Shown piece by piece: positions 3,756-30,208 of a stretch of 40,514 nucleotides of DNA. Position 1 is the first letter of the stretch. Every line of letters begins with the position of its first letter. The position numbers and the translations under genes were made by a program. The DNA is from Synergistaceae bacterium (GTDB lineage Bacteria > Synergistota > Synergistia > Synergistales > Synergistaceae). The stretch spans positions 1 through 40,514 of the forward strand of contig JAISZL010000011.1 in NCBI GenBank assembly GCA_031269245.1, written 5' to 3'. Below the pieces are notes generated by a model, which saw only the letters and a list, made by a program, of their open reading frames with translations, was not told the origin of the DNA and ran no database searches.

Positions 3756-3784
3756 CTTGACTTATTTTGACCATGTTCTATAAT
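3756..3784 (+). promoter_or_regulatory. ctsR promoter overlapped by a CtsR-box direct repeat
   Basis: A direct repeat CTTGACT-TAT-TTTGACC occupies 3756-3772. It has the 7-3-7 spacing of the known CtsR operator read on its complementary strand. The -35 TTGACT (3757-3762) lies inside the first half-site, and a perfect TATAAT (3779-3784) follows after 16 bases. CtsR binding would therefore block polymerase, giving autoregulation of the whole operon. The central spacer base differs from the published NAN preference. Confidence 0.82.
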
Positions 3785-3816: not shown

Positions 3817-4296
3817 ATGAACAGCCTTACCAAGGTCATCGGTGATTACATAGTGACGTTGTTTGACGATTCCGACAGTAGCGAGGTCGTTTTGAGCAGA
3901 AAGGATCTGGCTAAGAAATTTGGTTGCGTGCCGAGTCAAATAAACTACGTGCTGAGGAGCCGCTTTTCCCCGGAGCAGGGTTTTTTGATACAGAGCCAGC
4001 GCGGAGGGCATGGGTTCATCCGAATTATGCAGCTTCGTTTCTCGGATTGCGACGAATACGCCGAGCACCTTGAGGATCTGGTCGGCAACGCGATATCCGA
4101 ACAGGACGCAAGGCGCCTTTTGGCGCGGCTTCAGGATAGGGATGCCATCGCGCCGCGGGAGAGATTGCTGGTCGAGGTTGCCATTCGCAATCTGGACGAA
4201 AACGGGAGATCCCTTTTCGATCTTCCTCCATATAAACGGGATACGCTTCGAGCGGATTTGCTCAAAAAAATATTGGTCAGTCTCGCGATGTTTTAA
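3817..4296 (+). CDS. ctsR: CtsR, heat-shock repressor of class III genes
   Basis: CtsR is a dimeric winged-helix repressor of clp and related heat-shock genes. It releases DNA when heated and is then removed by McsB and Clp proteases. The 159-residue protein has the family length and hallmarks: FGCVPSQINYVLRSRFSPEQG (helix-turn-helix, residues about 35-55) and the glycine-rich wing SQRGGHGFIRI (about 61-71), including the Arg that McsB phosphorylates in Bacillus. The C-terminal half is the dimer and McsB-binding domain. It is the first gene of ctsR-mcsA-mcsB-clpC, with a CtsR box on its own promoter. The wing Arg is kept although McsB here looks inactive. Confidence 0.95.
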   Translation: MNSLTKVIGDYIVTLFDDSDSSEVVLSRKDLAKKFGCVPSQINYVLRSRFSPEQGFLIQSQRGGHGFIRIMQLRFSDCDEYAEHLEDLVGNAISEQDARRLLARLQDRDAIAPRERLLVEVAIRNLDENGRSLFDLPPYKRDTLRADLLKKILVSLAMF

Positions 4297-4308
4297 GGGG
4301 ATGCTTTG

Positions 4309-4911
4309 ATGCTATGCGATAATTGCGGAAAAAAAGATGTGGAGATATTGATAAAGCAGGTTGTGAACCAGGATGTCCATATACTGCGCCTGTGCCGCGC
4401 GTGCGCGGAGGAGTTGGGGTTCGTGTCGCCCGACATCCCCAGCGTCACGATAGTGTTTTCGGGCATGTCTTCTGATTTTCAAAAAACTAAGAAGGTAAAG
4501 CGCGTTCAGCCCAAAAAAAAGGAGCAGTTCTTCGACAGCTTGGTCTGCTCGTCCTGCGGGATAAAGTTCGGCGAGTTTCGTGAGATCGGATTGCTCGGTT
4601 GCCCAAAGTGCTACGAGGCGTTCAGGGCTCCCCTCGGCGCTTATCTTCAAAGGACCCAAGGCGCGGAGAGCCACTGGGGCGTGACGTCGGCGGAGCTCTT
4701 CGAGCAATTGAGTCAGGAGGCTCCCCCGGAGGAAACGGCGGATGTGGACGCGTCCAAGAGGGAGTGCCTGAATGACGAGCGTGAGAGAAATATGATTGAG
4801 TTGCAGATCGAGATGAGCGAGGCAGTATCGCAGGAAAATTACGAGAGGGCTGCCGAACTCAGGGACATTATGGCTTGTCTGCGCGGAGAGGGCAGAATCA
4901 ATGGCAGTTGA
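4309..4911 (+). CDS. mcsA: McsA, zinc-finger activator and adaptor of McsB
   Basis: The 200-residue protein carries four CxxC pairs: CDNC (residue 3), CRAC near 31, CSSC near 80 and CPKC near 97. These form the two zinc sites typical of McsA. At the C-terminus is a UVR motif (MSEAVSQENYERAAELRDIM, about 168-187), also found in UvrB and ClpC. McsA binds and stimulates McsB and links it to ClpC and CtsR. I placed the start at ATG 4309, eight bases after AAGGGG; a TTG at 4306 directly precedes it. The gene begins 12 bases after ctsR and overlaps mcsB by 11 bases, so the products are probably made together. Confidence 0.93.
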   Translation: MLCDNCGKKDVEILIKQVVNQDVHILRLCRACAEELGFVSPDIPSVTIVFSGMSSDFQKTKKVKRVQPKKKEQFFDSLVCSSCGIKFGEFREIGLLGCPKCYEAFRAPLGAYLQRTQGAESHWGVTSAELFEQLSQEAPPEETADVDASKRECLNDERERNMIELQIEMSEAVSQENYERAAELRDIMACLRGEGRINGS

Positions 4912-5980
4912 TTTGTTTTCAAGGGCTGAGCCTGCTTGGCTGAGCGTTCCGGACTCTGAGGCCAAATCCGATCCCATAACCTTGCTGAGCAGCGTCAGGG
5001 TGAGAAGGAATATAGATGGTTTCCCGTTTCCCGCCAGGTGCGGCAAGTCGGACCTTTATGACTTGGCCGCCATCATTCTGGGGTGCCTAGGCAGAAGCTC
5101 TGCGTGGGGCGAGTGTGAGTTTCGCATGATAGATAACCTCGACAACCTGTCGAGGCACCTGTTGCTCGAGATGAAGATGATAAGCTCCAGATTCGCGCTC
5201 GGCGGGGTAGGTCGGTTTTTGCTGCGCGACGACGAGGGAACCATGACGTGCATGATAAACGAGAACGATCATGTCACTTTGTCCGCGGTTTACCCCGGTT
5301 TTGACCTGAATTCGGCTCGTGAGAGGACTGAGCGTCTTGGGGAGTCGATAGACGTAAAGCTGGCGCACGACCCGGTTTTGGGCTATCTGACATCGAACCC
5401 CGCCTACGTCGGTACAGGTGTCACGGCGTCTGCGCTCTTTCACCTGCCCGCATTGGACGTCACCGACGATATATCCAAGGTTGCGGCCAATTTTCAGAAG
5501 GACTGGAAAAACCTCGATTTTTTCAAACTTTTGTCCGACAAGGGCGCTTCATGCGGCAGTTTTTACCTCTTGTCGAACAAAACTACGCTATCCGTCTCAG
5601 TTGAGGATATAATAGAGAGCGTAGAGAAGGCGTCTCAGTCGTTGGTGGCGAGCGAACTGTTTTCGCGTCAGAAAATACAGAAAACGCGGGAAGGGGAGAC
5701 GGCGGACAGATTCTGGAGAGCGTGGGGGTTGTTGCGGCACGCGAAGAAACTCGCGTTTCCCGAGGCTGCGGAGGCGTTCTCCTTCATCAAGCTGGGATCG
5801 GATCTGGGGATGCTGCCGCGGGTTGACAACAGGGAATGGCGCAGGATGCTGATCGGCGCTCAGAGATATCATCTGAGCCTAAACAGTCCGGAGATATTGG
5901 ATATGTCGGAGGAACCGTACGTCCGGGCGGCTATGTTCAGACAGTACATCGAGAACAGAAGCTCCTCCACTAATAATTAA
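4901..5980 (+). CDS. mcsB: McsB homologue with degenerate active site (probable pseudo-arginine kinase)
   Basis: Length (359), position and conserved blocks identify McsB, the kinase that marks proteins with phosphoarginine for ClpCP. Compared from memory with Bacillus McsB, the key residues are altered. SSRIRLARN is SSVRVRRN (first phosphate-binding Arg missing, residues 30-37). NEEDHIR is NENDHVT (120-126: catalytic Glu and an Arg gone). TSCP is TSNP (164-167), and GTGLRAS is GTGVTAS (171-177). The VRGIYGEGSEA stretch is replaced by a shorter unrelated one near 210-225. The C-terminal receptor RDxxRA is EPYVRA (338-343). Structural residues such as GYLTS, VGTG, FHLPAL, LSN and VEDII remain. 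The fold seems kept while catalysis seems lost. An adaptor role with McsA, CtsR and ClpC is inferred. Confidence 0.85.
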   Translation: MAVDLFSRAEPAWLSVPDSEAKSDPITLLSSVRVRRNIDGFPFPARCGKSDLYDLAAIILGCLGRSSAWGECEFRMIDNLDNLSRHLLLEMKMISSRFALGGVGRFLLRDDEGTMTCMINENDHVTLSAVYPGFDLNSARERTERLGESIDVKLAHDPVLGYLTSNPAYVGTGVTASALFHLPALDVTDDISKVAANFQKDWKNLDFFKLLSDKGASCGSFYLLSNKTTLSVSVEDIIESVEKASQSLVASELFSRQKIQKTREGETADRFWRAWGLLRHAKKLAFPEAAEAFSFIKLGSDLGMLPRVDNREWRRMLIGAQRYHLSLNSPEILDMSEEPYVRAAMFRQYIENRSSSTNN

Positions 5981-5995
5981 GGAGGTGCAATAATA

Positions 5996-8542
5996 ATGTG
6001 GCAGTTCTTCAACGAAAAAGGGAAACGGGTCGTGCAGCAGGCGCATAAGGAGGCTTTGCGCCTCGGTCACGACGTCATTGGCACTGAGCACCTGCTCTTG
6101 GGCATCCTGGACGAGATGGATATATTGGTGTCGGGGTTGTTCGACACATACAGCGTAGGGGCGGATGACATAAGGGCGCAGATGGATGCCCTCTTGGAGA
6201 AATCGCAGCCGAAGGACAAGATAGTAGACCTGCCCCTCTCTCAAAGGGCGAAGAGGGTTCTCGACATATCGATGAAAGAGGCCCGCAGCATGGGGGTGAA
6301 CTATGTAGGCGCCGAACACATCCTTCTCGGGCTCGTATCGGAGGGGGAGGGGCTCGCGGCGCAGATCCTCGGCCATTTCGGCTTCAACGTGCCGCGTCTC
6401 CGGAAGGACATTCAGAGCATGTCCTCAGATGGCGGGGAGATGCAGTTTGCCGCCATCAACTCGGCGCCGTCGCCAGAAAACAGCCGCAAGTCTGACGTAT
6501 CCAAGACTCCCACTCTCAACCAGCTCTGCACCGACCTGTCGGAGATGGCCCGTAAAGGGGAGCTGGATCCTGTAATAGGCCGTGACAAGGAGATATCCCG
6601 CATCTCTCAGATACTGACGCGCAGGACCAAGAACAACCCAGTTTTGATAGGCAATCCAGGCGTTGGGAAGACCGCTGTAGTCGAGGGCCTAGCTCGCAAA
6701 ATCGCCAGTGGCGCCATACCCGACATGCTCAAGGACAAGCGGGTAGTCCAGCTGAACGTGACGAACTTGATAGCTGGGACCAAGTACCGCGGCGAGTTCG
6801 AGGAGCGGATGCGCAGGATTCTGAAGGAGCTCAAGGACTCCAAGAACGTGGTGCTCTTCATAGACGAGATCCATACGATCATAGGCGCCGGAGGCGCCGA
6901 GGGAGCGGTCGACGCCGCCAATATCCTGAAGCCCGGGTTGGCGCGCGGCGACATACAGGTCATCGGAGCCACGACGATGGACGAATTTCGCAAATACATC
7001 GAGCGCGACAGCGCGCTGGAGCGGCGTTTCCAACCGGTGATGGTGGACGAGCCGAACGAGGAGAACACGGTGCTTATTCTTCAGGGACTTCGCGAGCACT
7101 ATGAAGCGCACCACAAGGTCAAGTACACGGACGATTCCCTGGTCTCCGCGGCCAAACTCTCCAGCCGTTACATTTCTGGTCGTTTTCTGCCGGACAAGGC
7201 GATCGACCTTATAGACGAGGCCGCCGCACGGGTGCGGCTCGACGCGATGGAGGCGCCTGACGAGCTGAAGGAGATGGAGCGCAAGCTGGCGGACATGCGC
7301 CACGAGAAGGAGGACATGGTGGTAGCACAGGAGTTCGAGCGGGCGGCCGGCCTTCGCGACGACGAACGCCGCATGATGGAGGACATAGAGGCTTACCGCA
7401 AGAACTGGCAGCTCCAGCGCAGCATGATAACGCCCGTTGTAGCGGTGAACGACATAGCGAATGTGGTGGCGGGGTGGACCGGCATTCCAGTGGTGCAGAT
7501 GACCGAGGAGGAAGCTCAGAGGCTTCGTCGTATGGAGGAGGAGATACACAAGCGGATGGTCGGCCAGGACGAGGCGATCGGAGTTGTCTCTCGCGCTATA
7601 CGCCGGGCGCGAAGCGGCATGAAGGACTCGCGCAGGCCCGTTGGAAGTTTCCTCTTTCTCGGGCCGACAGGGGTGGGCAAGACCGAGCTCGCCCGTTCGC
7701 TCGCCGAGTTCATGTTCGGCAACGAGGATGCCCTGCTGCGCTTCGACATGAGCGAATATATGGAGCGACATGAGGTTGCGAAGCTGATAGGCGCGCCTCC
7801 GGGGTACGTCGGCTATGAGAGCGGCGGCAAGATGACGGAGATGGTTCGCCGCAAGCCGTACTCGGTGATTCTTTTCGACGAGATCGAGAAGGCGCATCCT
7901 GACCTGTTCAACCTTCTGCTGCAGATATTGGAGGATGGGCACGTCACCGACTCGCAGGGGCACAAGGTCGATTTCAAGAACAGCGTTATAATCATGACCA
8001 GCAATGTGGGTGCGGAGAACATCGTGAAGGGGCAGACCCTTGGATTCGGGCTCGACCAGAAGCAGGACGGGGAAGGAGACCTGGGGAAGGAGAGCCACGA
8101 ATGGCGAAGGATGAAGTCCGGCATCTTGGACTCGGTTCGAAAGCTGTTCAGGCCGGAGTTTCTGAACAGGATCGACGACATAGTCGTCTTCAAGCCGCTT
8201 GATAAGTCCGAGTTGCTGCAGATCACCCACGTCATGCTGAAGGATGTCGTTCGCCGCGCGGCGGATCAATCCGTCGAGCTGTCCATAAAGGACGATGCCT
8301 GCCAGCTGCTGCTTGACAAGGGGTTCGACCCGAAGTACGGGGCTCGTCCGCTTCGCAGGACCATACAGAGGATGGTCGAGGACAGATTGGCCGACATGTT
8401 GCTTGAGGGCGCTTTGTCTCCCGGCGACCACGTGTCGCTTGCCACGGGAAAGAAGGCGGCCAACGCGATTTCGATCGAAAAGGGACAGAGGGACTTAGAG
8501 ACGTACGAACTATGCTTCCACAAGGAAACGAACATGGCATGA
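5996..8542 (+). CDS. clpC: ClpC, AAA+ unfoldase of the ClpCP protease
   Basis: ClpC unfolds substrates with ATP and feeds them to ClpP in the cytoplasm. The 848-residue protein has two Clp-N repeats (1-145) with GTEH (29-32) and GAEH (105-108), where the Glu residues line the phosphoarginine pockets known in Bacillus. The first AAA+ module has Walker A GNPGVGKT (219-226) and Walker B VVLFIDE (285-291). The middle domain has a UVR motif (about 436-470), which separates ClpC from ClpB. The second module has Walker A GPTGVGKT (556-563) and a ClpP-docking LGF near 682. The ATG follows AAGGAGGTG, 15 bases after mcsB. It overlaps the next gene by an ATGA. Phosphoarginine pockets are retained although McsB looks inactive. 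Confidence 0.96.
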   Translation: MWQFFNEKGKRVVQQAHKEALRLGHDVIGTEHLLLGILDEMDILVSGLFDTYSVGADDIRAQMDALLEKSQPKDKIVDLPLSQRAKRVLDISMKEARSMGVNYVGAEHILLGLVSEGEGLAAQILGHFGFNVPRLRKDIQSMSSDGGEMQFAAINSAPSPENSRKSDVSKTPTLNQLCTDLSEMARKGELDPVIGRDKEISRISQILTRRTKNNPVLIGNPGVGKTAVVEGLARKIASGAIPDMLKDKRVVQLNVTNLIAGTKYRGEFEERMRRILKELKDSKNVVLFIDEIHTIIGAGGAEGAVDAANILKPGLARGDIQVIGATTMDEFRKYIERDSALERRFQPVMVDEPNEENTVLILQGLREHYEAHHKVKYTDDSLVSAAKLSSRYISGRFLPDKAIDLIDEAAARVRLDAMEAPDELKEMERKLADMRHEKEDMVVAQEFERAAGLRDDERRMMEDIEAYRKNWQLQRSMITPVVAVNDIANVVAGWTGIPVVQMTEEEAQRLRRMEEEIHKRMVGQDEAIGVVSRAIRRARSGMKDSRRPVGSFLFLGPTGVGKTELARSLAEFMFGNEDALLRFDMSEYMERHEVAKLIGAPPGYVGYESGGKMTEMVRRKPYSVILFDEIEKAHPDLFNLLLQILEDGHVTDSQGHKVDFKNSVIIMTSNVGAENIVKGQTLGFGLDQKQDGEGDLGKESHEWRRMKSGILDSVRKLFRPEFLNRIDDIVVFKPLDKSELLQITHVMLKDVVRRAADQSVELSIKDDACQLLLDKGFDPKYGARPLRRTIQRMVEDRLADMLLEGALSPGDHVSLATGKKAANAISIEKGQRDLETYELCFHKETNMA

Positions 8543-9589: not shown

Positions 9590-10861
9590 ATGTTGCGGTT
9601 GTTTTTTAAGGACATGTCTAAAAATAGCGTGTTTGCGAGGTTGAGGCGCGCTGTGTCGGTGGATGCGGTGTCGAACAACGAGACCCCTGACATTGTTTAC
9701 GAGATTGCCGGGACGATCATCTCCGAGGCCGAAAAGAACTCATTTTACGGGGACCTGTGGGAGATCATGTTCGCGCGCTCGCTCGTGGAGGATGATAATC
9801 TCCTCTGGCGCTCCTTTGAGCGCTCGTCGGTCTCGCGAGGCTCTATTTTGGACATCGCGGCCAACAACATCTGGAACCAGCACAAGATCGTGGTGGGCGT
9901 CAAATCCCTCGTCGATTACGGGGACGAATACGAGATGCTCCGGCCTCTGTCGAACTACCTCCCGGTGAACGGCACGGTCGGGCCCTACAGCCAGGTTCTT
10001 AGGGATATCATGACTGTGGCGAAACGCATATCGAAGGCCGAGGCCCCCAGGGAGATGCTCTCCGCGCTGGCCGATTTTTACGAGTTGCACGGCGCGGGGG
10101 CGTACTCCATAGACTACGCATTCAGATGGTCCGGCGCCGACAAGGCGTTGATACCGTTGCGTGACCTCGACCGATTGACACTTGATTCATTGATAGGGTA
10201 TGAGGCGCAGAAGCGCATCCTGCTCGCTAACACCGAGGCGTTTTTGAACGGTCTGCCCTCGAACAACATCCTGCTCTACGGAGACAGCGGGACGGGCAAA
10301 TCGTCGTCCGTGAGGGCTCTTTTGAACGAGCCGACGTTCACTCAACGCGGCCTTCGGATAATCGAATTGCAAAAGGAGCAGTTCGTTGACATCCCCGATC
10401 TTCTCGGGATGATACGCGGGAGGAATTATAAATTCATACTCTTCATGGACGACTTGTCGTTCGAGGAATTCGAGGTGGAGTACAAGCACCTCAAGTCACT
10501 GATCGAGGGAGGGTTGGAGCGCAAACCCGACAACGTGCTGCTCTACGCCACGTCGAACAGGAGAAACATCGTGAGGGAGGTATGGTCCGACCGCAGGGTT
10601 TCGAGCGACGACGTTCACGGCTGGGATACTATGCAGGAAAAACTCTCACTGGCGGATAGGTTCGGCATTACAATATGGTATGGAGCTGTTAGCAAGGCGC
10701 AGTATATGGAGATAGTGAGGTCATTCGTCAAGGATGCCGGTCTCTCCGTCGCGGACCCGGACTTGGAGAGGCTCGCGCTCAGATGGGAGATCGAGAAGGG
10801 CGGCTTTACTGGCAGGACCGCGAAGCAGTTCGTATTTAGCCTGCTCTCCGGAGGACTATAG
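9590..10861 (+). CDS. DUF815-family AAA+ ATPase
   Basis: The 423-residue protein matches the DUF815 family of uncharacterised AAA+ ATPases. Residues 1-200 are a helical family-specific region. LIGYEAQKRILLANTEAFL follows, then Walker A GDSGTGKS (231-238) and Walker B FILFMDDLSF (about 283-292). The family block EVEYKHLKSLIEGGLE comes next, then YATSNRRNIV (sensor 1 region) and a C-terminal helical lid. Such proteins bind ATP; their substrate is unknown. The ATG at 9590 is almost touching the GGGGG upstream, so initiation may be at ATG 9614 or a nearby TTG. The gene has its own promoter, separate from the clpC operon. Confidence 0.85.
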   Translation: MLRLFFKDMSKNSVFARLRRAVSVDAVSNNETPDIVYEIAGTIISEAEKNSFYGDLWEIMFARSLVEDDNLLWRSFERSSVSRGSILDIAANNIWNQHKIVVGVKSLVDYGDEYEMLRPLSNYLPVNGTVGPYSQVLRDIMTVAKRISKAEAPREMLSALADFYELHGAGAYSIDYAFRWSGADKALIPLRDLDRLTLDSLIGYEAQKRILLANTEAFLNGLPSNNILLYGDSGTGKSSSVRALLNEPTFTQRGLRIIELQKEQFVDIPDLLGMIRGRNYKFILFMDDLSFEEFEVEYKHLKSLIEGGLERKPDNVLLYATSNRRNIVREVWSDRRVSSDDVHGWDTMQEKLSLADRFGITIWYGAVSKAQYMEIVRSFVKDAGLSVADPDLERLALRWEIEKGGFTGRTAKQFVFSLLSGGL

Positions 10862-15462: not shown

Positions 15463-15502
15463 TTTGACTTGTCTTGACAATTAGCAAATAGACTGATATT
15501 CT
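15463..15502 (+). promoter_or_regulatory. hrcA promoter with CtsR-like direct repeat
   Basis: TTGACA (15474-15479), a 17-base spacer and TATTCT (15497-15502) form the promoter. The -35 is the second half of a direct repeat TTTGACT-TGT-CTTGACA (15463-15479), which has the same 7-3-7 spacing as the repeat on the ctsR promoter. The first half-site is perfect and the second has five of seven bases. CtsR control is plausible but weaker than at ctsR. Confidence 0.6.
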
Positions 15503-15521: not shown

Positions 15522-15548
15522 TTAGCACTCAATATGTTCGAGTGCTAA
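15522..15548 (+). promoter_or_regulatory. CIRCE operator (HrcA binding site)
   Basis: A perfect inverted repeat TTAGCACTC, nine bases, GAGTGCTAA. It matches the CIRCE consensus exactly and lies just downstream of the -10, where HrcA blocks the start of transcription. It ends 35 bases before the hrcA start. Confidence 0.97.
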
Positions 15549-23576: not shown

Positions 23577-23631
23577 GGAAACGCCGATTGAGGGAGCTAG
23601 ATCCCTGGCGGGTGACGTTCCCTTGTTTTTT
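23576..23631 (+). terminator. terminator or attenuator between mtaB and the second Hsp70
   Basis: GGGAAACGCC (23576-23585) pairs with GGCG...GTTCCC (23607-23622) across a six-base bulge. An inner AGGGA/TCCCT pair extends the structure, and TTGTTTTTT follows. The GGAGG of the next gene starts right after the T-run, so read-through would be controlled here. Confidence 0.7.
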
Positions 23632-23646
23632 GGAGGTAACTTTGTT

Positions 23647-25221
23647 GTGAGCGACGACATCACTGTGGGGATCGACCTCGGCACGAGATACGCCCAGATA
23701 GCGATAGACGTTCCCGGAAGGGGCGTCACGCACATACCGAACAGGTGGGGGGGAACGCGCACCCCATCGATGGTAGCTTTCTCCAGGGACGGCCTCGTCG
23801 CCGGGGAGGACGCAGCCAGGATTGCCCTCGCTGATCCGGCGAACGTCTGGTGGGACATGAAGCGCAATCTTGGGACTGAGTGGGTCGCCAGGGTCGGAGG
23901 CCGGGCGTACACGCCCGAGGAACTTCTGCTTCCGTTGCTCGTTCTGCTCAGGGAGGACGCGGAGGCGAATTTGAAGGTCTTCATCTCCTCCTGCGTCCTG
24001 GCGGCACCGGCACACTTCAGCTTCCCGGAGAGGGGCGCCATGACGCGCGCGGCGCGCATGGCGGGCTTCGAACGAGTGAGGATAGTGAACGAGCCGACCG
24101 CGGCTGCCCTCTCCGTCGGGATAAACGGCCGTTTCCTGATAATCGACTTCGGCGCCGGCACACTCGACCTGTCGATGGTCGAAGGCGACACCGGAGTCTT
24201 CCAGGTGATGGACAGCAGGGGACGCAGGGATATCGGCGGGTTGGACATAGATAGATTGCTCGCCGAATTTATGTGCCGAGGGGCCGGGGTTCCCATCTCC
24301 CGGCCGGAGGACCCGAGGGCCTCTCTCATGATGCGCGAGGCGGAGGCGGTCAAAATCGCGCTCTCCGGTTCCATTGCGGAGACCTGGAGGGTCCCCGCCG
24401 GCCTCTTGGGCCGCGAAAGCAAAGTGGACGTCTCGAGGGCTGATTTCGAACTGTTGATAGGCCCGCTGATGGAGGAGATAGTGAGGATGGTCGAGAGCAT
24501 GTGGCGCAGGTATACCCCGGAGCGCCTGCTGCTGATAGGCGGGAGCGGGCGCATTCCCCTGCTGAGGCGTATGTTGGCGGCTCGGGTGAGGGAGCCGGAC
24601 CGGATCCGTCCAGCCCCGGAGGACGCGGTCGTGACGGGTAGCGCCCTCTATGCGAACCAGGGACGGGAGCGGTTGCTGATAGACGTTCTGTCCAGGAGTC
24701 TTGGCGTAATGAACGCCGACGGCGGGGTTGTGCCTGTCCTATCGCGCGGCACGCCGCTTCCCGCCGAGGCCAGGAGGAGCTTCACCGCGCTCGGCAGCGG
24801 CAGCGTAGAGGTGACCATAGTGCAGGGCGAGGGCCGCGTTCGCAGCGCTGGGAGGATCCTGCAGACGATCTCCGCGGAGGGTGTGTCCAACGGCGAGGCG
24901 GTGGAGGTCCTCTTCAAGGTTGACGGCGGGGGACTGCTGCACGTTGAGGTGCGCCGCGCGAAGGGAACCAGCAGGCGGACGATCGCGCTCGAGAGCGACG
25001 AGCTGGGCACGGCGTCGTGCGACATATCACGGGAGATCCGGGCGAGGCAGGAGAGGCTTGTCCGCGTGTCGGCTAAGTACCCGGACAACTTCCAGCAGCG
25101 CCTGCGCGACTTGACGAGGAGCGCTCTGTCGCTGAAGAACGAGGACTCGTCGCTCCAGTGGCAGGCGCTCGAAGTGCTCGACAGGATGATATCCGAGCTG
25201 GAGCGGGTGACGCGGCCATGA
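23647..25221 (+). CDS. divergent Hsp70-family chaperone (DnaK paralogue)
   Basis: A second, shorter Hsp70 of 524 residues. The nucleotide-binding domain is recognisable: GIDLGTRYAQIAI (residues 8-20, where DnaK has TTNS), the ATPase Lys in WDMKRNLG (72), VNEPTAAALSVG (147-158), DFGAGTLDLSMV (167-178) and IGGSGRIPLLRRM (near 297). The substrate domain is present (SRGTPLPAEARRSFTALGSG, VEVTIVQGEGRVRSAGRIL) but the linker is SRSLGVMNADGG and the lid is short. It starts at GTG 23647, ten bases after GGAGG. It ends as ATGA overlapping a J-domain gene. No CIRCE or CtsR repeat lies directly upstream. The pair probably serves a dedicated set of clients; that is inference. Confidence 0.88.
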   Translation: MSDDITVGIDLGTRYAQIAIDVPGRGVTHIPNRWGGTRTPSMVAFSRDGLVAGEDAARIALADPANVWWDMKRNLGTEWVARVGGRAYTPEELLLPLLVLLREDAEANLKVFISSCVLAAPAHFSFPERGAMTRAARMAGFERVRIVNEPTAAALSVGINGRFLIIDFGAGTLDLSMVEGDTGVFQVMDSRGRRDIGGLDIDRLLAEFMCRGAGVPISRPEDPRASLMMREAEAVKIALSGSIAETWRVPAGLLGRESKVDVSRADFELLIGPLMEEIVRMVESMWRRYTPERLLLIGGSGRIPLLRRMLAARVREPDRIRPAPEDAVVTGSALYANQGRERLLIDVLSRSLGVMNADGGVVPVLSRGTPLPAEARRSFTALGSGSVEVTIVQGEGRVRSAGRILQTISAEGVSNGEAVEVLFKVDGGGLLHVEVRRAKGTSRRTIALESDELGTASCDISREIRARQERLVRVSAKYPDNFQQRLRDLTRSALSLKNEDSSLQWQALEVLDRMISELERVTRP

Positions 25222-26261
25222 CGGGCGGCGCGCACTTCAAGGTGCTCGGCCTCCCGCAGGACGCCAGCTGGGACGAGGTGAAGAAGTCCTTCAGGCGCCT
25301 CGCGCGCACATACCACCCGGACGTCGCTGGGCCTTCCAGTGCGCGCAAGTTCGCCGAAATCACCGAGGCCTACATGACGCTGAAGGCAGCCATCTCGCCC
25401 GAGGCGTTTTCCGGCGTGACTCGCGCGGGAGGGCGTGCCCAGCCCCGCGGACAGGCGGGGCGAAAGGCCGGGGCGGCATCCGGGCGGGCCTCCCTGTTCA
25501 AGGTGTTCTGGAACGGGCTGCTCCAGAGGCTGCGGAGGAGACATCGCCCCGGCTGCGGGGAAAACGCCGGCGCGGATGAGGTATCCACGGCCAGGACGCG
25601 CTTCATCGGGAGCGTCATATCGAGGGCCGAGTCCCAGATGTGCGAAATACTCTCCATGCGCGGCGAGTTCAGCGAGCGCGACAGGACTTCGGCGATCGTC
25701 CGGAGGCTCGGCAGCCGCCGCCCGGAGGTGGTCATACTTGCGTTGAAACGCGTGTCACGCCGCAACCAGAGCGACGACGTGTCGCGGGCCATAATAGAGA
25801 ATATCAAGCGCGGCATGCCCACTACGGAGATACTGGGGATAGTCCTTGAGATTTTCTCGTGTTTCACGGAGCCGTCGGGACGCTCCTCGCTTGCGCGTGC
25901 CATCATTCCCAACGCGAATAAGTTTTCCGACGCCGACGCCGTGACGATATTGAAGTATTTCAAGAGGTGGAAGCTGGAGCCTGAGTGCAACGCCGCTTTT
26001 CTCTCGCACGATTCCGAAAACGTCGTCGCCACCGCTTTGCACTGCTGGCCCGCCGAGAGCGGCGCTGGCGGTGCGCGGGGCCTCCTCAATCTTCTCAAGC
26101 GCGACGACGAGAGGATTCTCGTGCCGCTCCTCAGACTCCTCAGGAGGGAAAAAATGCCCCCCTGGGCTCTGCTGAGGCTCTCCGGGTTGATGCGTGACAG
26201 CGCGTCCCCGGCTGTCAGAGTATGGGCTTCCGCTATTGTGCGAGATCAAAACGTGAGTTAA
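25218..26261 (+). CDS. J-domain protein with helical-repeat C-terminus, partner of the second Hsp70
   Basis: The 347-residue protein begins with a J-domain (residues 5-67): HFKVLGLPQDASWDEVKKSF, RRLARTYHPDVAG with the HPD that activates Hsp70 (33-35), and KFAEITEAYMTLKAA. A basic Gly/Arg/Ala-rich linker follows (about 68-112). Residues 120-347 are predicted helical and look like a HEAT/ARM-type solenoid (RRLGSRRPEVVILALKRVSR, EILGIVLEIFSCF, ATALHCWPAESG, LLNLLKRDDERILVPLLRLL). There is no Gly/Phe region, zinc finger or DnaJ C-terminal barrel, so the tail probably binds the client. The ATGA overlap with the Hsp70 gene argues that the products act together. I know no named family with this exact architecture. 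Confidence 0.82.
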   Translation: MTGGAHFKVLGLPQDASWDEVKKSFRRLARTYHPDVAGPSSARKFAEITEAYMTLKAAISPEAFSGVTRAGGRAQPRGQAGRKAGAASGRASLFKVFWNGLLQRLRRRHRPGCGENAGADEVSTARTRFIGSVISRAESQMCEILSMRGEFSERDRTSAIVRRLGSRRPEVVILALKRVSRRNQSDDVSRAIIENIKRGMPTTEILGIVLEIFSCFTEPSGRSSLARAIIPNANKFSDADAVTILKYFKRWKLEPECNAAFLSHDSENVVATALHCWPAESGAGGARGLLNLLKRDDERILVPLLRLLRREKMPPWALLRLSGLMRDSASPAVRVWASAIVRDQNVS

Positions 26262-27226: not shown

Positions 27227-27295
27227 TTTCATATAATATTTTATGTGCCGCGCTAAACCAGCACAGTAGGCATGTAAGTTTCAGGGGTGATATGT

Positions 27296-28465
27296 TTGGT
27301 ATCGGGCGAATTCACGACTGTAGCTGAGATTGATGTTGACGACGACCTGACTCTCCTCCTCGCGACAAGCGGAGGGGTACCGAGGTTGGGCATATACAAC
27401 ACATACAACGACAAAAAAAAGTTCGTGTCGCTCTCTTGGCTCGAGGATGCCGGCAGGAGCCTAAAGATCAAGATAGGGCGGTCGACCAAGGAATACCAGA
27501 TGAAGCTGCTGATGGACGGCGTATCGTCCCTCATACAGGCGGGGGCGTCCGCGATATCCCTCAACACCATGGCGTGGAGAGGCGTCCAGCTCTTGGGCGA
27601 TTTGATCCATGTCCCGAAAACGGCGAGAAGCGAGGCTGATCTCGCCCTTATAGCCGACAACAAAAAGGAGACGCTTTGGTACGCTTACACGCCGAAGAAG
27701 GGAAATTGCCGCGTGAAGCCGTGCTTTGTCGTCGACGAGCTGGAGAGGAGTGTCATCGGCTCCGCTATGGAGGATGGGAGGCCGTGGCCGGCTCCAGCGC
27801 TTTCGATACCAAACGGCGGCTTGCCGTTCACCATGAGGAACGTATCGATCGTGAAGGAGCTTGCGATCGCCAACCCGGCGAGGTGGAACGAGTTCATGCT
27901 GCCCGTCGCGAAGGGGATGCTGCTTGGTTTCAGCGATTGGTCGATGGGAGGGGAGCACATCTTCGCAGACGCGCTCTGGAAGCACCTGCCCAGTCCGAAC
28001 TACAGGTCGGAGGATACGATACAGGCGGTATCGTCGGCCGGCCGCCAGCTCGTGATAAAGATCATGGCGTATCTCCGCCTTTGGCCGGTATTGAGGCGGG
28101 TCGGGACGGAGCATGTGCCCGACTCCATCAAGGAGTGCTCGGAGCGCGGCTTGAAAAAGCGTGAACGCTTCGAGATGACCGCGCCTAACCTCGGCGACAA
28201 GGTCTTCAGGGTCACGAGGCTATCGGACGAGGGGACGTCTGTCGCTTTTTCGATAGTGCCGCAGACGAGGCTGCCGGGTGAGCAGGATCGCATAATCACC
28301 CTCACCGAGGAGGACTGGGAGACATGCCTCGACGCGTGTTCACTCGGCGGCGAGCGCGATCCTCAGTACACGTGCAACTCCATCCTCGGAGGTGTAGAGA
28401 CGATAGATTGGTATGCCCGCATAAAGGAGTGTATGGAGTGGCAGCCGGAGGAGGGGGAGGAGTAA
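27296..28465 (+). CDS. protein of unknown function, first gene of a two-gene operon
   Basis: I do not recognise this 389-residue protein. It has no signal peptide or membrane helix and looks cytoplasmic. The N-terminal part is beta-rich (VAEIDVDDDLTLLLATSGG, PRLGIYNTYNDKKKFVSLSW), then an Ala/Gly-rich helix (GVSSLIQAGASAISLNTMAW). A middle region has KPCFVVDELERSVIG and SDWSMGGEHIFADALWKHL, and the acidic tail ends EEGEE. No nucleotide-binding loop, zinc site or known catalytic motif is visible. The TTG at 27296 sits eight bases after a very strong AGGGGTGAT site; GTG 27287 lies inside that site. The next gene begins immediately after its stop. Confidence 0.75.
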   Translation: MVSGEFTTVAEIDVDDDLTLLLATSGGVPRLGIYNTYNDKKKFVSLSWLEDAGRSLKIKIGRSTKEYQMKLLMDGVSSLIQAGASAISLNTMAWRGVQLLGDLIHVPKTARSEADLALIADNKKETLWYAYTPKKGNCRVKPCFVVDELERSVIGSAMEDGRPWPAPALSIPNGGLPFTMRNVSIVKELAIANPARWNEFMLPVAKGMLLGFSDWSMGGEHIFADALWKHLPSPNYRSEDTIQAVSSAGRQLVIKIMAYLRLWPVLRRVGTEHVPDSIKECSERGLKKRERFEMTAPNLGDKVFRVTRLSDEGTSVAFSIVPQTRLPGEQDRIITLTEEDWETCLDACSLGGERDPQYTCNSILGGVETIDWYARIKECMEWQPEEGEE

Positions 28466-30208
28466 GTGAGACAAGACCTCGACAACGCTATCGGCTGTAT
28501 AGTCGAGAAGTGGAAGGACGATAAGGAGATATCCACCCTTGCCAGGCAGATGGAGGTGCTGGGCAGGAATATGTCGAAGCTCCGGGACGGCAAGGACTCA
28601 GAGACTCGCAAGAAGGCCCGCATAGTGTGGCAGAAGGCGGCGGCACAGTACTGGGATCTCTTATGGGCGATAGTGGAGGCTAAAATCGACGTCGGTCCCC
28701 CGGACGAGCTCGAATTCGACGACGCCGAGCGTCTTTTCATAGATTATGGGCACCTTTCGTCGAAGTACACGACCCCCAACCCCTTCTTCGAGGAACAGCT
28801 CGCCGCCACGTCCGCTGTGGACATGTATCAGTACAACAGGATGACGGACTACATAAAGGAGAACTACGCCCTGATCTTCGGCAAGCCATACAAGGGGCCG
28901 TCTGGAGGGGTCACGCTCGAGGAGAAACTCAAACGCTTCAACGACGAGCTGCGAATGACTAAGGCGCGCCGCAGGACGGCCCTCAGCACGCTGGTCTCCA
29001 AGATTGATCTGATCGAAAAATCCGAGCTGAATGAGACGTTGCTGCACCTCGAGGAGGGGCTTCAGGACGCGGTGGAGACGGATATGCGCACTAAGCGCGT
29101 CCGCGAGGCGGACAACGCCGCTAGAAACGTCATAAAGGATCACTGCAAGAGATATGAGGTGGCGGAGAGGACGTTCTGGTACCTGATCGACAGCTTGGAG
29201 CGCAAGCTGATCAAACAGGAGGAGCCGAAGCAGGAGGATTCTCCTGCCGAGCCGTCCCCTCCCGCCGACGGGAGTGAGCCGCCAAAAAGGGAGGTCATAT
29301 TCGACCCGTTCGCCGAGATAGAGGACGACGACTGCTACAGCTCGCCCGCCTTCAACGCCCCGCCGCCCGACATCGACGAGACGCTCCCGGAGCACGAGCG
29401 CATGGCGGATATGTCTGAGGAGGAGGGTTTTCAGGACTCAGAGGCCACCGCCGAGACGATGCGGGAGGAACCGTCCAGGGAGGATCATGCTGAAGCCCCG
29501 GACCAGTCGCTCAAGATAATACAGAACGTGCTCTCCCTCCACGACAAGACGAAGTTTTTGGCCGGCCTGATAGTCCACGTGACGAACGAGTCCGAGCGCT
29601 GGAGAACTCGCTGCGAGATGTCGAAGAACAAGCACAAGGGCCAGGGTCTGCCTGCCCTCAAGCTGGAACTGAGGGAGGGCCTCAACCACAAGAAGGAATT
29701 CATGATGCTGGCGGCCCGCACGGCGCGAGTGGATCCCTCGCCTCTCTGCCAGAACAAGAACAAGCCCATCTCGACCGCCAGGGCTGGCGAGGTAATGATG
29801 GACCTCACGCCGCTAGACCCGGATATGCTCCGCGCGTCGCGCATAAGGATGTACGGCATCCCGCGGGTCATACTGGTTCCGGGCCAGGGCTTAGGAGTGT
29901 ATGACTGGGAGGACAACAGCCTGATAATACCGATCTTCGACGTCGTGTCGGACGTGAAGGACTTCTGCTTCGCCCTGGCCTCGTTCCGCTGGGACAACGA
30001 CGAGGACAGGACGCTCAAGGACACCTACGCGCTCCTTAAGGTGAACAAGGGCAAGGGTATCAGGGCGCTTCAGGAGTCCTTCATGACCGACTACTTCCTG
30101 TGGATATCGAAGGAGCGCAAGGGCTACAGGATACTTCCGCGCGAGGTATCGAAGTGGTTCAAGACGTTCTTCAAGCAGAAGTCGGGTACCGGCGCGGACA
30201 AAAAGTAA
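28466..30208 (+). CDS. large cytoplasmic protein of unknown function, second gene of the operon
   Basis: This 580-residue protein is not recognised. Residues 1-250 are highly charged and helical with likely coiled coils (LARQMEVLGRNMSKLRDGKD, LLHLEEGLQDAVETDMRTKR). Residues about 250-350 form a Pro/Glu/Asp-rich, probably disordered linker (EDSPAEPSPPADGSEPP, PPPDIDETLPEHER). Residues about 352-580 are a separate domain with alternating strands and helices (LAGLIVHVTNESERWRTRCE, IPRVILVPGQGLGVYDWED, LPREVSKWFKTFFKQK). No signal or membrane segment is seen. The GTG start directly follows the upstream stop behind GGAGGAG, so the products are probably made together. The domain layout suggests a scaffold or regulator; that is a guess. 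Confidence 0.78.
   Translation: MRQDLDNAIGCIVEKWKDDKEISTLARQMEVLGRNMSKLRDGKDSETRKKARIVWQKAAAQYWDLLWAIVEAKIDVGPPDELEFDDAERLFIDYGHLSSKYTTPNPFFEEQLAATSAVDMYQYNRMTDYIKENYALIFGKPYKGPSGGVTLEEKLKRFNDELRMTKARRRTALSTLVSKIDLIEKSELNETLLHLEEGLQDAVETDMRTKRVREADNAARNVIKDHCKRYEVAERTFWYLIDSLERKLIKQEEPKQEDSPAEPSPPADGSEPPKREVIFDPFAEIEDDDCYSSPAFNAPPPDIDETLPEHERMADMSEEEGFQDSEATAETMREEPSREDHAEAPDQSLKIIQNVLSLHDKTKFLAGLIVHVTNESERWRTRCEMSKNKHKGQGLPALKLELREGLNHKKEFMMLAARTARVDPSPLCQNKNKPISTARAGEVMMDLTPLDPDMLRASRIRMYGIPRVILVPGQGLGVYDWEDNSLIIPIFDVVSDVKDFCFALASFRWDNDEDRTLKDTYALLKVNKGKGIRALQESFMTDYFLWISKERKGYRILPREVSKWFKTFFKQKSGTGADKK

Follow-up and report, generated by a model that had tools for sequence, protein, structure and literature searches.

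A predicted pseudo-arginine-kinase McsB in the CtsR-McsA-ClpC operon of a Synergistaceae clade

We analysed a 40,514-nucleotide stretch of DNA from a Synergistaceae bacterium (NCBI GenBank assembly GCA_031269245.1, contig JAISZL010000011.1, positions 1 to 40,514; hereafter, the window) and found that it encodes an McsB homologue that has very probably lost arginine-kinase activity. On balance, we favour a lineage with a kinase-free CtsR/Clp circuit, in which McsB would be gated by McsA and would regulate CtsR, ClpC or both without catalysis. The original prediction of a pseudo-arginine-kinase in an otherwise intact CtsR-McsA-ClpC operon was strongly supported by the lack of a second McsB, the lack of a phosphatase, the dN/dS values of the gene, and zinc finger 2 of McsA.

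An McsB homologue in an operon with a CtsR box

The window contains four forward-strand genes in the order ctsR-mcsA-mcsB-clpC, under a CtsR box. ctsR (positions 3817-4296) encodes a 159-amino-acid repressor with both CtsR Pfam domains, which we aligned with its relatives; mcsA (4306-4911) encodes a 201-amino-acid protein with both zinc fingers and the UVR motif; and clpC (5996-8542) encodes 848 amino acids. The mcsB homologue (4901-5980), a putative pseudo-arginine-kinase gene, is a 359-amino-acid reading frame with no internal stop; its start overlaps the 3' end of mcsA by 11 nt, and 15 nt separate it from clpC. The CtsR operator-like box, GGTCAAAATAAGTCAAG (3756-3772, reverse strand), has a single mismatch to RGTCAAAN3RGTCAAA. 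It is located about 50 bp upstream of ctsR and overlaps the -35 element of the ctsR promoter, a sigma70-like element read from the sequence as TTGACT-16 bp-TATAAT (3757-3784, forward strand). We observed a CtsR box with one or two mismatches in all 18 related pseudo-McsB operon loci, in addition to the window. Within CtsR itself, the wing near RGGHG reads IQSQRGG in the clade, versus VESQRGG or a close variant outside it; this change adjoins the winged-helix Arg and may be compensatory.

We identified the McsB homologue by Pfam, NCBIfam and PDB sequence searches, alignments and an AlphaFold2 model. It belongs to the PF00217 superfamily (90.4 bits, with a gathering cut-off of 22.4). It also matched the NCBIfam McsB models, with scores well below their cut-offs. 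For the equivalog model, NF053707, the score was 172 bits against a cut-off of 500, which canonical Synergistales McsBs also miss (268-383 bits). The closest solved structure was 6fh1, and alignment to the canonical McsB profile with hhalign gave P=100. As had been proposed, we modelled the fold: the AlphaFold2 model (pLDDT 88) has a TM score of 0.86-0.88 to 6fh1 (Foldseek), and the window protein is thus predicted to be a full-length McsB fold, with phosphotransferase and dimerisation domains.

Several features lie elsewhere in the window. A gene for a DUF815 (AAA-type) protein (9590-10861) is near the clpC operon. A perfect CIRCE element (15522-15548) overlaps the start region of hrcA and is followed by hrcA-grpE-dnaK-dnaJ-prmA. 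A short way upstream of CIRCE is a CtsR-like box with two mismatches (15463-15479), a match near chance in a whole-window scan; together with CIRCE it would make dual CtsR/HrcA control possible. Apart from dnaK-dnaJ, the window has another Hsp70-like gene, divergent in sequence, with a DnaJ-domain gene after it (23623-26261), and two long adjacent reading frames of 392 and 580 amino acids (27287-30208) have no Pfam match at 1e-5.

Catalytic residues of McsB are replaced in the window protein

We mapped active-site residues in B. subtilis numbering using MAFFT and a profile-profile alignment, the latter running without gaps across the catalytic segments except near the lid. Relative to canonical McsB, S27 is replaced by Leu and catalytic R29 by Ser (Ser31, 4991-4993; supported by the alignments and by the same strand register in two AlphaFold2 models). 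The alignment places Asn122 (5264-5266) at the position of the catalytic base E121, Thr126 (5276-5278) at that of R125, Asn166 (5396-5398) at that of C167, and Thr175 (5423-5425) at that of R176, all on the forward strand. R31, R34, E120 and R341 are unchanged. The original prediction had listed altered SSRIRLARN, NEEDHIR, TSCP and GTGLRAS segments, and software alignment converts these into losses of R29, E121, R125, C167 and R176. In B. subtilis McsB, R29K, R125K, R176K and R207K each abolish kinase activity, and C167S is kinase-inactive (PMC7235348). The features of an active kinase that are missing from the window protein are R29, R125, C167, R176 and R207, together with the glutamates E121 (Asn) and E212 (Asp).

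The VRGIYGEGSEA segment, which had been described as shortened, proved instead to be a rewritten lid (5501-5548, forward strand), with a two-residue insertion, Asp201-Trp202, just upstream of residues 203-216. Within this region R207 is replaced by Phe, with a Lys next to it (G208 to Lys), and E212 by Asp. In the AlphaFold2 models, the lid loop of 11 residues in the canonical control is a 5-residue turn between longer strands in the window protein, in a region modelled with moderate confidence.

We also considered a shifted register, in which the S-x-R-x-R of SSVRVRRN would restore R29 and R31. This was rejected as the default because the profile alignment is gapless there. It is also opposed by the AlphaFold2 models, in which strand 27-36 of the window protein and that of a canonical relative have the same position with respect to invariant R33, R36 and N37; the two models share an alignment holding both groups and are not fully independent.

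A clade of McsB proteins lacks the same residues

We next extended the comparison to related genomes, with clade sequences obtained by tblastn-anchored ORF extraction. Among 53 Synergistaceae genomes searched, 20 genomes from five genera encode a pseudo-type McsB; order-wide, McsB was found in 50 of 183 genomes, with 20 pseudo-type and 30 canonical. Isolate codes suggest that the clade may come from insect guts. The pseudo-type proteins are monophyletic on the McsB tree (support 100/100), and the ClpC proteins of these genomes likewise form one group. All 31 distinct C167-bearing McsBs retain R29, R31, E120, E121, R176, R207 and E212, and 30 of them retain R125, the remaining one having Ser125. 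S27, R29, R125, C167 and R207 are missing from every pseudo-type sequence that is readable at the site; R176 survives in two clade members and is absent from the others that are readable. Since these losses recur in 20 genomes of one clade, they are more than chance, and they are best explained by an active site dismantled once, in an ancestor of this Synergistaceae clade.

We searched the window genome twice for a second, canonical McsB, and each search returned a single match. A canonical McsB elsewhere in the genome, or misassembly or contamination of the sequence itself, could be imagined in a 2.34 Mb draft of 98 contigs that is 96.7% complete. Given these searches, and given that 19 other genomes encode this type of protein, each with a single McsB match, we regard such an artefact as hardly credible. 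A control-genome panel was disregarded; it had scored B. subtilis as lacking McsB and CtsR, and B. subtilis has both.

Two of the replaced sites carry less weight than first thought. Loss of the catalytic Glu had been predicted, and this is correct for E121 of the window protein. As a trait of the clade it fails, because Asn at E121 is found only in the window protein and Asp in two relatives, with Glu in the other 16 readable members. The window protein is thus the most degraded clade member at this site. Similarly, the receptor motif RDxxRA is replaced by EPYVRA as predicted, with Glu-Pro (5912-5917, forward strand, by alignment) at R337/D338 and R341 kept. R337K inactivates B. subtilis McsB (PMC7235348). 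Nevertheless, R337 and D338 are also missing from many canonical Synergistales McsBs, with R341 kept throughout, so their loss is not diagnostic and gives no evidence of inactivity. The R337/D338 pair is often missing even where the active site of a canonical Synergistales McsB is intact (loci L024-L030 and L127-L133), and allosteric control may differ in this phylum.

The clade also shows constraints of its own. An Arg at the position of canonical A33 (Arg35 of the window protein, 5003-5005, forward strand) is new and invariant in the clade, and the Asp-Trp insertion precedes the lid. A Lys or Arg adjoins the R207 column in 18 of 19 members, and E212 is Asp in many.

Clade mcsB genes are under purifying selection

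Clade mcsB is under purifying selection. Pairwise dN/dS values were about 0.07-0.27 for pairs with finite dS, several dS values being high, and reading frames are intact in all 20 clade genomes. These data uphold the earlier argument from the intact frame that the gene is no decaying pseudogene. Sequence identity among clade members averages 0.61 in the dimerisation domain and 0.58 in the kinase domain, such that the dimerisation domain is conserved at least as well as the kinase domain. The order is reversed in canonical McsB, with values of 0.43 and 0.52, respectively. The lid hardly varies between canonical pairs (dN 0-0.08) and evolves rapidly between clade pairs (dN 0.07-0.29). Conservation of the NEEDH segment in the clade equals that in canonical McsB. 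A test of whether relaxed sites concentrate in the active-site segments was given no weight, as many generally conserved positions outside these segments are relaxed too.

The mcsB gene was not found in 29 of the 53 family genomes, indicating that its loss is tolerated in the family, and ctsR-mcsA-clpC is retained in those examined (loci L163-L168 and L062-L089). The clade gene could therefore be decaying towards the state of these relatives. This is contradicted by the selection estimates and the intact frames, and the clade is several genera deep with a conserved box and operon; we judge decay highly improbable.

The YwlE-type phosphatase is missing from the clade

Following the suggestion to look for a YwlE-type arginine phosphatase, we found none in the window genome. 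The low-molecular-weight phosphatase family (LMWPTP, PF01451) was present in 30 of 30 canonical-McsB genomes versus 0 of 20 clade genomes. We then searched for the pArg-type P-loop as a DNA pattern, C-x-G-N-T-C-R-[ST]-P-M, in which the Thr directs phosphoarginine specificity (PMC8001253). The pattern was found in 29 of 30 canonical-McsB genomes, in none of the 20 clade genomes, and in 1 of 133 genomes without McsB; this one is 56% complete and belongs to a canonical genus. Four McsB-free relatives in which we read the P-loop (loci L090-L092 and L099) have the Ile form. The absence of any LMWPTP from the clade refers to 20 drafts that are 55-97% complete, most of them fragmented, and the co-occurrence counts are phylogenetically non-independent, with about one loss event within the clade.

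The phosphatase data also bear on whether the site has been remodelled and is still catalytic, using R31, R33, R34, the basic residue next to R207 and, in most relatives, E121 for a weak or altered phosphotransfer or for some other activity that depends on a nucleotide or phosphate. The window protein keeps R31, R34 and E120, most clade members keep E121, and the new Arg33 and the basic residue adjoining the R207 column are found alongside them. These retained or shifted basic residues suggest that the site may still bind anions or nucleotides to some extent, and the conservative Asp at E212 and the canonical degree of NEEDH conservation agree with a remodelled catalyst. However, C167, R29 and R125 are lost throughout and R176 mostly, constraint on the lid is relaxed, the YwlE-type phosphatase is missing, and in three members E121 has drifted to Asp or Asn with no further damage apparent. 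We consider residual catalysis unlikely. A dead site might instead serve as a sensor, binding arginine, nucleotide or phosphate and tuning McsA or CtsR binding without turnover. Residual pocket features and the continued conservation of the flanking GTG and NEEDH residues fit this idea, but such residues may be merely structural, and we find a ligand sensor quite improbable. Our preferred reading is that the ATP/guanidinium site of this McsB has been dismantled and the protein is probably held by selection for binding functions. With the tagging parts and the tag-removing enzyme both gone, the protein is probably a pure binding partner.

McsA zinc finger 2 accompanies McsB, catalytic or not

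McsB is bound by the second zinc finger of McsA (PMC12467219). Among genomes with a readable McsA, zinc finger 2 was present in 19/19 with pseudo-McsB, 14/14 with canonical McsB and 0/22 without McsB, the last group lacking its second half. Because zinc finger 2 is found wherever McsB is present, whether canonical or pseudo-type, it is the best evidence for binding between the pseudo-kinase and McsA, and its retention suggests that pseudo-McsB still binds McsA. Together with the loss of the phosphatase, it indicates that the lineage probably gave up both writing and erasing of phosphoarginine and kept the partnership of McsA with McsB.

The retained pocket glutamates of ClpC had been offered as support for the circuit. 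We found the same residues in the McsB-free genomes examined, so their retention is not diagnostic and that support falls away. In a comparison of the ClpC N-domain (window positions 5996-6480; loci L039-L056 and L149-L168), the first repeat has its EG[ED]G loop in 14 of 14 canonical operons and has lost it in 18 of 18 pseudo-McsB operons and in all 6 McsB-free operons examined.

Discussion

The best reading of these data is that pseudo-McsB is an McsA-gated partner of CtsR and/or ClpC, with a non-catalytic role. We hold this specific binding-partner reading with fair confidence. From the patterns described above we infer the loss of activity itself, an McsA-McsB complex and an effect on CtsR or ClpC. 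According to a review (PMC5506225, citing Elsholz 2011), reduced McsA holds McsB in B. subtilis, oxidation of McsA thiols frees it, and freed McsB strips CtsR from DNA while unable to act as a kinase; the review and PMC7235348 also attribute the release of McsB for CtsR removal to oxidation of zinc finger 2. In B. subtilis, McsB needs kinase activity to stimulate ClpC but not to remove CtsR from DNA (PMC5506225), so that a role in CtsR release is no less likely than one as a ClpC adaptor. Some of the adaptor effect survives in the kinase-dead C167S McsB of B. subtilis: the half-life of MgsR is 12.3 min with C167S versus 17.7 min in the deletion (PMC7235348). Based on the B. subtilis switch, the C167S mutant and the ClpC data, the most economical role is that of an McsA-gated, non-catalytic CtsR regulator; a ClpC-adaptor role is possible, and an adaptor for unmarked clients is plausible.

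We propose that pseudo-McsB would be co-translated with McsA and held through its second zinc finger, with CtsR continuing to repress the operon via the conserved box. Oxidation or unfolding of zinc finger 2, or clients competing for the finger, might then release pseudo-McsB, which would strip CtsR from its operator and/or present it to ClpC with no phosphoarginine mark.

If this is true, the window protein would be the first phosphagen-kinase-fold pseudoenzyme in proteostasis within the literature searched. Our literature search found no description of an inactive McsB lineage, with subscription papers mostly outside its coverage, and no paper joining 'pseudokinase' and 'phosphagen kinase'. 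The clade would occupy a stable intermediate position, with active McsB on one side and related genera that have lost mcsB altogether on the other. Evolution would have separated, in 20 genomes, two McsB roles that have been difficult to distinguish, and the phosphatase and the zinc finger of McsA would serve as the corresponding controls at the genome level. Pseudo-McsB would also be a ready-made protein for studying McsB function without phosphoarginine, and annotation of an mcsB gene need not imply arginine phosphorylation.

The window protein shares its fold, two-domain layout and operon with the McsBs of B. subtilis, G. stearothermophilus (6fh1) and S. aureus (8gqd), as well as an upstream mcsA with an McsB-binding finger and residues R31, R34, E120 and R341. 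It differs from active McsB in lacking C167 and the catalytic Arg residues that have been tested, in its rewritten lid, and in having no YwlE-type phosphatase in its genome. The laboratory kinase-dead mutant C167S of B. subtilis has likewise lost C167 and keeps a partial adaptor effect on MgsR (PMC7235348), whereas the window lineage has lost many catalytic residues, naturally, clade-wide and under selection. For the redox switch that acts on CtsR through McsA and McsB in B. subtilis, the window contains CtsR, zinc finger 2 of McsA, McsB and the CtsR box; in B. subtilis the switch operates alongside an active kinase and YwlE, and here it would be the remaining function of McsB. Serine/threonine pseudokinases offer a parallel, in that a kinase fold is kept and catalytic residues are lost under selection, as in this clade, where the fold and purifying selection persist. 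Their fold is unrelated, however, and the window protein would be a pseudoenzyme of the phosphagen-kinase type.
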